Assembly: GCF_000063445.1 (NCBI RefSeq)
Contig: NC_009464.1
Coordinates: 1,054,001 to 1,118,000, forward strand
DNA: 64,000 bases
Direction: 5' to 3'
Source of the DNA: Methanocella arvoryzae MRE50
GTDB lineage: Archaea > Halobacteriota > Methanocellia > Methanocellales > Methanocellaceae
Part shown: piece after piece, positions 31,321-62,640 of the stretch
Numbering within the stretch: position 1 is the first letter of the stretch
How the letters are laid out: each line of letters opens with the position of its first letter
Notes under the pieces: generated by a model
What the model saw: only the letters and a program-made list of their open reading frames with translations
The model's database searches: none
Told to the model about the DNA's origin: nothing
Program-made: the position numbers and the translations under genes

Positions 31321-31566
31321 CGAACGCTGCGCTGTGCCAATCCTCACAGATACCACAGATTCAGATTGATTCCACAGATTTCTCTGCTGAATCCACGGAT
31401 TACTACACGATATCACAGAAAGAATACTCTAATACTATTCGAATACCGATTGCAATCATAAGAGTACTCGATCAGAACATTTTTGCTTATCTGTGCAATC
31501 GGTCGTAATCTGTGGATTCTGTCTCAATCCGTGGAATCTGTGAGGTTTTGCACAGCGCAGCGTTCG
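31321..31566. mobile_element. MITE-like element, copy B1
   Basis: A 246-base non-coding element bounded by perfect 17-base terminal inverted repeats (CGAACGCTGCGCTGTGC at 31321-31337 and its complement at 31550-31566). The next inner sequences (CACAGATACCACAGATT, AATCTGTGGATTCTG) are also roughly inverted, so it can fold into a long hairpin. A second copy in the same orientation lies at 62250-62533. There is no transposase gene and no clear target duplication. It fills the gap 31250-31655. Confidence 0.75.
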
Positions 31567-35495: not shown

Positions 35496-36827
35496 TCAAA
35501 TACGCTTGTTTTCCTCCCAGTCGCGCTCGGCGTCAAGCACTTCGAGCACGACTGAGTATACGCCTACGAGGGAGTAGGCGAAGATGATCCATGGCCGGAC
35601 GAAGATAGAGAGCAGGATGTCGGAGATGCTTCCCCTCCCCTCTTCGAGCTGGAGGATGGACTCGGCAGCGAACAGGATGGCCAGCGGTAATACAAGCGCG
35701 ATCAGGATTATGGGGGGCACGACGTTGACGTAGAGCATGAACCCCAGGAAGCCCATCAGGATGACGCTGAACAGCAGCCCTCCGGTGCTCAGGGAGTACA
35801 GCAGGATCGTGTTGAGCGTTTTCAGGTTGATGCGCTCCTTTGCAGACTGCTTGAGGTGCTTGCGCAGGACGCCCATGCTGCCCCGGGTCCACCGCACGCG
35901 CTGGTGCCACCAGTCCCGTGGGCCAAGCGCCGGCTGCTCGTAGCTTTTGATCGTGTAGTCGATGCGCATGTGGCAGTTTTTCCTGATCAGCTTCATGCCC
36001 AGGTCGCAGTCCTCGGTCAGGCTGGACTCGTCGAAGCCGCCGATGCGGTCGAACACGGTTTTCCGGAGGAAAACGTTCGACCCATAGATGGAGTGGTTAC
36101 CTGTCAGGAAGTCGGAGATGAACCTCGAGAAATTGTTGAGGACCGTCGATTCGTTGCCGGTTATCGTGGTAAAGAGGTTGTAGTCCATGTTCCTGGCCAT
36201 GACCTTTCCGCCGATGCAGTCCAGCTTCGGGTCCATGATGAATTCGGCCGAAGCCCGGATCAGCGCGTCCTTATCTATGGTGTGATCCGCATCGTAGATG
36301 GCGATGATCTGGCCGGTCGCATGGGTGAGGCTGTTATTGATCGATCCTGCCTTAGAGCCGGCGTGGGGCCCTTCGTTAGGAACGACCTTGACACACGGGT
36401 ACTTCCGGGAGAGCGCCGCAGCGATCTCCGGTGTCGAGTCCCTGCACCTCGGGCGGACCTCAGGGGCGATGATCACTTCCAGCCTGTCGTGGGGGTAGTT
36501 CGCCTTCATGATGCTTTCGACGCACTGCCCGATGGTGCGCTCCTCGTTCAGGGTGGGGATGATGATCGTCATCGGCAGCGGGTTCCGCACGCTGGCTTCC
36601 GGCAGGCGGTACATGCGGCTCTGCTCGACAAAGCGGGCGGCAAAATAGATGGTGATAACCACCACGATACCCAGCAGTGTGTACGACGCCAGGGGTATCC
36701 ATTCTCTGACCAGCACCCAGTTGACCACCGAGGCGAGAAGGATGGTCGAGTAGACGAGACTGCCGGCGAGGACTCCCAAAGCCAGCAGCATCAGGAGGAC
36801 AAGCACAAAGGCGAGCTTGTTTTTCAT
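35496..36827 (-). CDS. Membrane family 2 glycosyltransferase
   Basis: Processive-type polysaccharide synthase of 443 aa (relatives include hyaluronan, NodC and poly-GlcNAc synthases). Two N-terminal transmembrane helices precede a GT-A domain with IIPTLNEERTIGQCVESI, the metal-binding YDADHTIDKDAL, the base-providing TEDCDLGMKLI, and the product-channel motif HQRVRWTRGSMG. At least three helices follow (GLLFSVILMGFLGFMLYV). It would polymerise a cell-surface sugar using a UDP-sugar. It is divergent from the diadenylate cyclase gene across the 88-bp hairpin array. Confidence 0.92.
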   Translation of the reverse strand: MKNKLAFVLVLLMLLALGVLAGSLVYSTILLASVVNWVLVREWIPLASYTLLGIVVVITIYFAARFVEQSRMYRLPEASVRNPLPMTIIIPTLNEERTIGQCVESIMKANYPHDRLEVIIAPEVRPRCRDSTPEIAAALSRKYPCVKVVPNEGPHAGSKAGSINNSLTHATGQIIAIYDADHTIDKDALIRASAEFIMDPKLDCIGGKVMARNMDYNLFTTITGNESTVLNNFSRFISDFLTGNHSIYGSNVFLRKTVFDRIGGFDESSLTEDCDLGMKLIRKNCHMRIDYTIKSYEQPALGPRDWWHQRVRWTRGSMGVLRKHLKQSAKERINLKTLNTILLYSLSTGGLLFSVILMGFLGFMLYVNVVPPIILIALVLPLAILFAAESILQLEEGRGSISDILLSIFVRPWIIFAYSLVGVYSVVLEVLDAERDWEENKRI

Positions 36828-36852
36828 GGTTTAGTGCATATCCACCCTTTTG

Positions 36853-36862
36853 GTATTTAAGA
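36853..36862 (-). promoter_or_regulatory. TATA box for glycosyltransferase gene
   Basis: On the minus strand CTTAAATACC lies about 30 bases before the ATG at 36827, giving a nearly leaderless transcript. The hairpin array starts 29 bases further upstream. Confidence 0.5.
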
Positions 36863-36890
36863 GTACTTCACAACTGCTTACGGCTCATAC

Positions 36891-37240
36891 AATTGGAGCG
36901 TGCGTAGCAAAGCTTCAATTGCCTAAGACACAAGCTATTGTAGCATGCAAAGCAGCTACAATTGCTTGTGTCGCATTCAATTGGAGCGTGCGTAGCAAAG
37001 CTTCAATTGCCTAAGACACAAGCTATTGTAGCATGCGAAGCAGCTACAATTGCTTGTGTCGCATTCAATTGGAGCGTGCGTAGCAAAGCTTCAATTGCCT
37101 AAGACACAAGCTATTGTAGCATGCGAAGCAGCTACAATTGCTTGTGTCGCATTCAATTGGAGCGTGCGTAGCAAAGCTTCAATTGCCTAAGACACAAGCT
37201 ATTGTAGCATGCGAAGCAGCTACAATTGCTTGTGTCGCAT
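36891..37240. repeat. Four tandem 88-base units with paired hairpins
   Basis: Units begin AATTGGAGCGTGCGTAGC at 36891, 36979, 37067 and 37155 (period 88) and differ by only a base or two. Each unit holds hairpin 1 (arms CAATTGGAGC and GCTTCAATTG, 12-base loop) and hairpin 2 (18-base arms GACACAAGCTATTGTAGC and GCTACAATTGCTTGTGTC, one mismatch, 10-base loop; 36927-36972 in copy 1). The two hairpins resemble each other around their loops. There are no open frames and no unique spacers, so it is not CRISPR. It occupies most of the 570-base gap between two divergent genes. Confidence 0.95.
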
Positions 37241-37396
37241 GCTATTTCCTTTTATAGGATAAGGACAAAATACGAATTGGCCTGCTTGGACGAGCAAGCC
37301 CGTCTGGCGAGTAAGCGTACTCACCAGTCTATGATAACCTACTAATATTTCAAAGTGCACTAAGACATAGGAAATTTTGAGTGGCGGAGGCGGACG

Positions 37397-38047
37397 TTGG
37401 CAGCAGAAGCAGTGACTATCGACGAGCGTGAGGTCCAGGAAGAAAAAGTGATGGACGTAATCCTGGGCGTCGCTAAGGGCATCTCCAAGAGCGGAGAGGG
37501 CGGCCTGATCGTGATAGCCGACCGTGCTGACATAGACGGCCTTTTCGAAACCCACTACCCGCAGTTTACCACCGCTTATCCTGTGACCGAGAAGGGCATG
37601 AATGTGGTCCTGGAGAAGCTGGCGACCATCGACGGCTCTGTTTTGATTACCCCGAGAGGAGAGCTCGTGGCCTTCGGCGCCCGTTTGCTACGCTCGACCA
37701 CCCTGCCGGGCTTCGGCACCAGACACGCCGCCGCCAGCGGCATCACCGAAAGCCTGCCAAACTCCACGGCCATCCTGATCTCGGAGGAGTCCAGCTGGAT
37801 CAAAGTATTCCAGAAAGGCACCATCGTGCTGGAGATGGACTCGTCCGAAGTCAACCCCAACGTAATGGAGAAAGTGGCCGCCTTCCTCACCAGAGGCGAC
37901 ACCGCCCTGCTGGCCGCAGCCTTCCTTTCCATCGTAGTGCTGCCCGTGACCCCGCAGAGCATAGTCTACATCGGCGGCGCATACCTCATCGTGAAGTCTA
38001 CTTTTGAGACCTTATCGTCGCTGCTCAAGGGCATCGACAGCGCCTAA
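37397..38047 (+). CDS. dacZ: Diadenylate cyclase (DisA_N domain, DacZ type)
   Basis: Makes cyclic di-AMP from two ATP; 216 aa, soluble. The DAC domain covers residues 65-200: the first catalytic motif is IDGSVLITPRGE (residues 78-89; DGS where most enzymes have DGA), and the second is GFGTRHAAASGI (residues 105-116). About 60 residues precede the domain without a membrane helix, unlike bacterial CdaA, and the DNA-binding half of DisA is absent, as in euryarchaeal DacZ. TTG start at 37397 with GGAGG eight bases upstream. c-di-AMP controls osmolyte and K+ transport in studied archaea. Confidence 0.88.
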   Translation: MAAEAVTIDEREVQEEKVMDVILGVAKGISKSGEGGLIVIADRADIDGLFETHYPQFTTAYPVTEKGMNVVLEKLATIDGSVLITPRGELVAFGARLLRSTTLPGFGTRHAAASGITESLPNSTAILISEESSWIKVFQKGTIVLEMDSSEVNPNVMEKVAAFLTRGDTALLAAAFLSIVVLPVTPQSIVYIGGAYLIVKSTFETLSSLLKGIDSA

Positions 38048-54859: not shown

Positions 54860-55082
54860 CAATCCTCAGGGGCCTCCGAAACCTCCCTGTTGTCCGGCTT
54901 GCGCACACATACCCGGCAAACTGGGAGGTTGGGGAGGGCCCGGAGATCAGGGAGACTTTTCAAACTGGGAGGTCAGGGAGGTTAAGAGGTCTGAGAGGAG
55001 GATGGTGAGGGCCCGGAGGATTAGAGAGGAAAAATCGTCTGTTGGGAATCGCCTTGAGAACGCCTGCATTCACAGGCGTTCA
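54860..55082. repeat. Composite dispersed repeat, copy A2 (purine-rich part)
   Basis: The region reads CCTCCGAAACCTCCCTGTTG, a GCGCACAC segment, then a purine-rich tract (GGGAGGTCAGGGAGG) and ends in a hairpin (GAACGCCTGC...CAGGCGTTC) at about 55048-55072. The same series appears in reverse complement at 58384-58610. The two form large inverted repeats around three genes. The remaining gap to 55240 shows no gene. Confidence 0.85.
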
Positions 55083-55240
55083 AAAGGCGAACGTCACGGC
55101 ATACGAAAGATTCTGCTCACAAATATGTCTTATTCGCCCATTTTTTACCGTTCAAGAGCATCAAAAAAGTTCCAGAACCGACTATGCTTTACATTTGTTT
55201 ATCGCCGCAGAAGAAAATCTTCACATATACCAGATGCGCT

Positions 55241-58019: not shown

Positions 58020-58640
58020 CAAGATCGCCAAGCACTCGTCGTATGAAAAATGGAATATTCAGGTAGATGCTATGAAAAATTGAAAGTTGGCCCTGTGTGA
58101 GTCGAAAATACCGCCAGGCATGCCAAGGGGCCAAGCTCGCCAAGAGCTAATTTTTCATGGAACGCCAAGAAGCCAGGCACGCCAGGGACTTTTTCGATCG
58201 GAACCACGTCGATCAATAAATTTATCTCTTGGCGAGCTTGGCCCCTTGGCGAGCTTGGCGGCTTTACTAGCGCAGAAACTGGGAACTGCCAGTTTTACAT
58301 CACTTATGCCTGATCAAGGCTCCGATCATCACCTGACTCTTTGCCAAAACGTTTTGGACAGTTCCTTTGCCGGGATATTCGCCTGTTGAACGCCTGCATC
58401 CGCAGGCGTTCTCAAGGCGATTCCCGACAGCCGGTTTTCCCTCCCACACCCTCCGGGCACTCACCTTCCTCCTCCCAGACCTCCTGACCTCCCTGACCTC
58501 CCAGCTTGAAAAGTCTCCCGGACCTCCGGGCACTCCCCAACCTCTCACTTTGTAGTGTACGTGTGCGCAAGCCGGGCAACAGGGAGGTTTCGGAGGCACC
58601 GGAGATCAGAGAGGAGGAATGTGAGGGACCAGAGGCCCTG
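58020..58640. repeat. Composite dispersed repeat, copy A3
   Basis: Three parts. 58020-58145 matches 11200-11320 inverted (CGCCAAGCACTC, ATATTCAGGTAGATGCTATG, GCCAAGCTCGCCAAGAGC). 58228-58340 matches 10705-10800 inverted (TGATCAAGGCTCCGATCATC). 58384-58610 matches 54860-55080 inverted, including the GAACGCCTGC hairpin and the pyrimidine-rich tract. The remaining bases of the gap 57893-58687 hold no credible gene. Confidence 0.88.
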
Positions 58641-62104: not shown

Positions 62105-62640
62105 TATCGCTGCGCTGTGCTATCCATTATTACAAGGATACTCGCAAACAGTTGTCTATGTGCAGGTGAACGTACACAAACGCTGCGCTGTGCTAGCCAC
62201 CATTACAAGGATACTCGCAAACAGTTGTCTATGTGCAGGTGAACGTACACAAACGCTGCGCTGTGCCAATCCTCACAGATTCCACGGATTGTGATTGATT
62301 CCACAGATTCCTCTGCTGAATCCACCGATTACTACTCGATATCACAGATGGAATACGATTATACTATTCGATCACCGATAGCAATCATAAGACAATCGAT
62401 CAGAATATTTTTTATCTATCTGTGGAATCCATCAGAATCATCAGATTCTGCGTCATCTGTGCTATCCATTAGAAATCTGTGGATTCTGTATCAATCTGTG
62501 GCATCTGTGTGGTTTAGCACAGCGCAGCGTTCGACTTGCAATCTCACTTCATATAAGCAATCTGTTATGCACAGCACAGCGTTCGACTTGCTATCTCACT
62601 TCATATAAGCAATCTGTTATGCATAGCACAGCGTTCGTTA
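62105..62640. mobile_element. MITE-like element, copy B2, with flanking tandem arrays
   Basis: 62250-62533 repeats the 31321-31566 element in the same orientation, with the same terminal inverted repeats (AACGCTGCGCTGTGC and GCACAGCGCAGCGTTCG). To the left a 73-base unit (TACAAGGATACTCGCAAACA) occurs at 62131 and 62204; to the right a 52-base unit starting GCACAGC(G/A)CAGCGTTCG occurs at 62517, 62569 and partly 62621. Each array unit ends in a copy of the terminal repeat, so the ends have been duplicated. No transposase gene. The gap 61985-62902 holds no gene. Confidence 0.8.

Follow-up and report, generated by a model that had tools for sequence, protein, structure and literature searches.

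A tandem array of near-identical 88-bp units occupies the spacer between a glycosyltransferase gene and a diadenylate cyclase-like gene in a 64-kb stretch of the Methanocella arvoryzae MRE50 genome (the window), and the features of the locus are listed in Table 1. We compared the locus with three other Methanocellaceae that have the orthologous spacer, namely Methanocella sp. PtaU1.Bin125 of the same genus (G001) and two further genomes (G002 and G003); the species itself is represented by one genome.

Table 1. Array, hairpins, promoter-like motifs and flanking genes at the locus (positions in the window)
Feature	Position	Strand	Detail
Membrane glycosyltransferase family 2 gene	35496..36827	-	PF13632/PF00535; divergent from array
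TATA-like box TTAAATA, glycosyltransferase gene	about 36851..36857	-	aligned in G001
Palindromic minisatellite, 4.0 x 88 bp, eight hairpins	36886..37241	.	TRF and unit alignment
Array units 1-4	36890-36977, 36978-37065, 37066-37153, 37154-37241
H1 of unit 1, again at +88, +176, +264	36890..36921	+	arms CAATTGGAGC / GCTTCAATTG
H2 of unit 1, again at +88, +176, +264	36927..36972	+	arms GACACAAGCTATTGTAGC / GCTACAATTGCTTGTGTC
TTTATAGG motif just outside array	37251..37258	+	among relatives kept in G001 only
Likely core promoter of diadenylate cyclase gene, CTACTAATATTTC	37339..37351	+
Diadenylate cyclase-like gene	37397..38047	+	PF02457

The array and its flanking genes

Tandem Repeats Finder (TRF) reports a period of 88 at 36886-37240 with 4.0 copies, 99% match and no indels, and its score of 696 is the top tandem score of the window. 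Internally the units differ at position 36949 only, where unit 1 has A instead of G; the sole further difference is the last base of unit 4. An earlier sequence-only reading had described four near-identical 88-base units with two hairpins each, which these figures bear out; the array also lies where that reading placed it, except that it starts at 36886 or 36890 rather than at 36891. No open reading frame of at least 80 aa in the ORF list runs through the array, and a coding repeat is ruled out because 88 is not divisible by 3.

Gene calls and Pfam matches agree with the earlier placement of the array between divergent glycosyltransferase and diadenylate cyclase genes, and all four Methanocellaceae examined have the two genes side by side in divergent orientation. 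The TATA-like box of the glycosyltransferase gene has a clearly aligned counterpart in G001, and G002 and G003 have similar AT-rich stretches; the 29-base gap reported between the array and a TATA box is correct for this side (36857 to 36886). On the other side, a related TACAAnTATTy or TACwAATATTy-like motif is located 58-83 bp before the cyclase start in the four Methanocellaceae. The best-conserved putative core-promoter motifs of both genes thus sit outside the array, and if the predicted promoters are those in use, neither mRNA would include it.

The interval from the array to the cyclase promoter holds two more small hairpins (37270-37325), and at this place G001 has a hairpin region that is GC-rich and repeat-like but shares little sequence with it. 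The product of the cyclase-like gene is kept in the four Methanocellaceae, each of which also bears a second DAC protein of ~290 aa. It is a form distinct from DacZ, its NCBIfam scores are far below all cut-offs, and it shows DGS and TRHAAA in place of the DGA and TRHRAA of a bacterial cyclase, in motifs important for the catalytic activity of bacterial enzymes.

Two related hairpins in each unit

The arms of 10 and 18 bases noted earlier were found as H1 and H2, respectively. The 10-bp arms of H1 form nine Watson-Crick pairs and one G.U on the plus strand, and 17 of the 18 positions in the arms of H2 are paired, with one T.T mismatch. A single unit folds at -43.1 kcal/mol, compared with -23.8 +/- 3.0 for dinucleotide shuffles (z = -6.4, 0 of 200 shuffles as low), and the whole array departs from such shuffles with z = -17.4 on the plus strand and -11.9 on the minus strand. 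Energies as low as that of the unit occur in 4 of 1442 other 88-mers of the GC-rich window, and the array region is AT-richer (about 45% GC) than the genes (about 60%). The unusual feature of the array is its palindromy within an AT-richer stretch, not its raw fold energy. Among the long-unit tandem repeats in a 464-kb sample of the genome, made up of the window and 20 stretches of 20 kb each, no other is as strongly palindromic as the array.

Throughout the array, H1 and H2 have their dyad centres exactly 44 bp apart. The alignment score between H1 and H2 is 37, and the maximum among 5000 palindrome-preserving shuffles is 30. Since the observed score lies above all shuffles, H1 and H2 are homologous, two versions of one palindromic monomer of ~44 bp, with the 88-bp unit as its dimer; by this homology the array comprises eight copies of the monomer in a dimeric repeat. 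At stem pair 7 both sides have changed, from G.U in H1 to U-A in H2 or the reverse, and pairing is kept, while another stem pair is A-U in H1 and a U.U mismatch in H2. The kept pairing may reflect selection on structure or template-switch correction of quasi-palindromes, two processes that are inseparable here because there are just two hairpin types.

Distribution in the genome and in relatives

To BLASTN the array is the sole locus of its kind in the genome (one contig of 3,179,916 bp). A covariance model built on the unit likewise hits nothing but the array, and the hits fall on both strands, as the array is similar to its reverse complement. With a second covariance model, that of the monomer, there was one extra weak site (405722-405763, E = 0.0165), which has merely short stretches in common with the monomer and lacks the shared hairpin, and we took it as a chance match. 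The H2 loop motif GCATGCGAAGCAGC, allowing 2 mismatches, shows no enrichment in the genome (46 sites against 59 for the reversed control).

These searches bear on two known classes of palindromic repeats. REP, BIME and REPIN sequences with their RAYT (Y1) transposases resemble the array in being intergenic clusters of palindromes. However, they are dispersed in many genomic copies, and BIMEs contain distinct REPs in alternating orientation; the array is a single locus, such alternation is not established for it, and the Y1/RAYT-type transposase family PF01797 has no match in this genome, whereas control genomes do match. The description of the array as BIME-like is therefore unsupported, and the dispersal over many unrelated genomic copies that the sequence-only reading had named as evidence against its own proposals was not seen either, the genome search giving one copy only. 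CRISPR arrays likewise consist of tandem repeats with a palindromic part, but the units here are directly joined and near-identical throughout, and the lack of spacers upholds the earlier statement that the array is not CRISPR. No Rfam family, CRISPR-DR families included, matches the array at the gathering threshold; the sub-threshold matches are to eukaryotic microRNA and snoRNA models and similar ones, the kind expected of any strong hairpin.

No match with a meaningful E-value was found in 60 relatives or in 392 genomes of the phylum, and the array is absent from the orthologous syntenic spacer in G001, G002 and G003, so that copy number in relatives, a comparison suggested earlier, comes to zero arrays in these three spacers. 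A phage or plasmid origin was rejected, as no phage or plasmid record matches the array. Three viral contigs match the 18-base arm in one common non-palindromic context that lacks the second arm, and they were treated as unrelated. Without the array, the spacer would measure about 215 bp, similar to those of G001 (288 bp), G002 (about 237 bp) and G003 (about 199 bp), and the array is for this reason an addition to an ordinary spacer. Exactly at the orthologous place in G001, one stretch, GCATGCGAAACAGGCTAATTACTT, resembles the H2 monomer to a degree reached by 7 of 1000 shuffles. It may represent the seed of the array; because six comparisons were made, this match is weak and only suggestive.

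The array agrees with non-coding satellites as defined in a survey of prokaryotes (Subirana and Messeguer 2019; PMC6749651), which are non-coding and have at least four tandem repeats of 10-200 nt with at least 60% of identical length: it has 4.0 repeats, all four of 88 nt, is intergenic, and has a unit length that is not a multiple of 3. The survey, which also covers Methanocella, finds many such satellites to be unique to one place, and the array is likewise unique in its genome. A palindromic minisatellite is of a kind already described in prokaryotes. The array differs from these satellites in that its unit is strongly palindromic, a dimer of two related hairpins, and in that it sits between two divergent promoters. 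Among the papers searched, none was found that describes the array itself.

Origin and possible effects of the array

We consider it likely, with a probability of roughly 60%, that the array is a palindromic minisatellite that is young, non-coding and of local origin. Since it was found at one spot in one species, a recent, local duplication of DNA seems a better description of it than a new genetic system, and the near-identical copies together with the single-species occurrence fit a recent event. As the dimeric structure suggests, one hairpin-forming sequence at the locus may have been duplicated, and the two monomer copies may then have diverged into H1 and H2. The H1-H2 dimer would subsequently have been amplified, either when replication slipped or switched template at the hairpins, as would fit the way in which palindromic repeats are generally understood to arise, or through unequal recombination, and the same process would also homogenise the copies. 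Its position upstream of both core promoters would explain why the array is tolerated. It is probably without a dedicated function, and any effect would most likely come in cis from the DNA itself, upstream of the two promoters, not from an RNA; possible effects include altered spacing, cruciform formation or supercoil uptake, and accidental protein binding. Four points weigh against this origin: the palindromy of the array far exceeds that of the other sampled long-unit tandem repeats of the genome, its position between two promoters invites regulation, pairing is kept at stem pair 7, although template-switch correction would do likewise, and the possible seed in G001 is a weak match in view of the six comparisons.

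If the array is such a minisatellite, it is a clear case of one caught early, with an empty-site relative at hand, a dimeric repeat that records the order of duplication and a possible single-copy seed still visible. Should copy number vary among strains, this would show how such repeats originate beside archaeal promoters and whether a c-di-AMP gene is altered by them; at present the interest of the array is most likely no more than local.

The regular geometry could also point to a multi-site operator, in which a dimeric or oligomeric regulator occupies the eight dyads and controls the divergent glycosyltransferase and cyclase promoters, or to a supercoil buffer between these promoters used by nucleoid or topology proteins. 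The exact 44-bp interval between dyads and the location amid conserved divergent promoters, 29 bp from the glycosyltransferase TATA box, are in keeping with such a role, but with 10.5 bp to a helical turn, 44 bp does not amount to whole turns, the array is missing from the same spacer in all three relatives despite the conserved genes and promoters, and there is no regulon because no other copy exists in the genome. We regard this explanation as unlikely. It is quite doubtful, further, that the array has newly evolved into a cis-acting control element which, within one Methanocella lineage, couples expression of the diadenylate cyclase and glycosyltransferase genes via a bound regulator or cruciforms, with copy number tuning the effect.

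A structured non-coding RNA, or an eight-hairpin 5' leader that is possibly processed, seems very unlikely. The fold is very stable on either strand, and the stem pair that is G.U on the plus strand and A.C on the minus strand leans slightly to a plus-strand RNA; however, the position of the best-conserved core promoters outside the array implies that neither mRNA should contain it, which argues against the structured leader proposed in the sequence-only reading, and Rfam offers nothing beyond the sub-threshold hairpin models mentioned above. For the sequence-only reading's protein-binding array and independent non-coding RNA, the hairpins are the one feature in favour. Insertion of a REP/BIME-like or other mobile palindromic element is highly improbable: the palindromic units are clustered, this genome harbours another dispersed family (GCACAGCRCAGCG, 202 sites), and one copy of a dispersed hairpin family in G001 has a 16-base stretch in common with H1 (GGAGCGTGCGTAGCAA), but a 16-base match has an E-value of about 1 in a genome of that size, the G001 family does not occur in the present genome, and the genome contains neither dispersed copies of H1 or H2 nor a PF01797 transposase.

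Several other repeats came to light in these searches. The G001 hairpin on contig C192 that has the 16 bases in common with H1 is at most a possible relative of the array, being a member of a different dispersed family that is absent here. This G001 family of short inverted repeats, GTTAAAGGCCGCAGAGACCGCAGAGG, gave 120 BLAST matches, with partners often about 95 bp apart (examples are L155, C49:17120-17242 and C40:16510-16634), and three further Methanocellaceae genomes that were searched, one of them the present genome, gave none. Other tandem repeats unrelated to the array were found in the 464-kb sample, among them a 32-nt repeat of 6.7 copies and a 53-nt repeat of 3.3 copies, both at 100% identity. 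The 32-nt repeat is located at G000:C1:1363477-1363691 (L144 13477-13691), and its unit is not a multiple of 3; the 53-nt arrays belong to the dispersed GCACAGCRCAGCG family. The GCACAGCRCAGCG element has 202 sites in the genome against 0 for the reversed control, a count that suggests about 100 copies, and no Y1 transposase (PF01797) was found in the same genome. Its two ends, CGCTGCGCTGTGC (often as a 52-73-nt tandem) and GCACAGCRCAGCG (often as an about 53-nt tandem), are about 225-265 bp apart and enclose a CACAGATT-rich interior, as seen in the window at 31325-31562 and 62108-62637 and in L070 at 1150-1575. Two hairpins similar to each other also occur in the window at 55049-55090 (TCGCCTTGAGAACGCCTG / CAGGCGTTCAAAAGGCGA) and 58379-58420 (TCGCCTGTTGAACGCCTGC / GCAGGCGTTCTCAAGGCGA), which possibly represent a further dispersed palindrome family.
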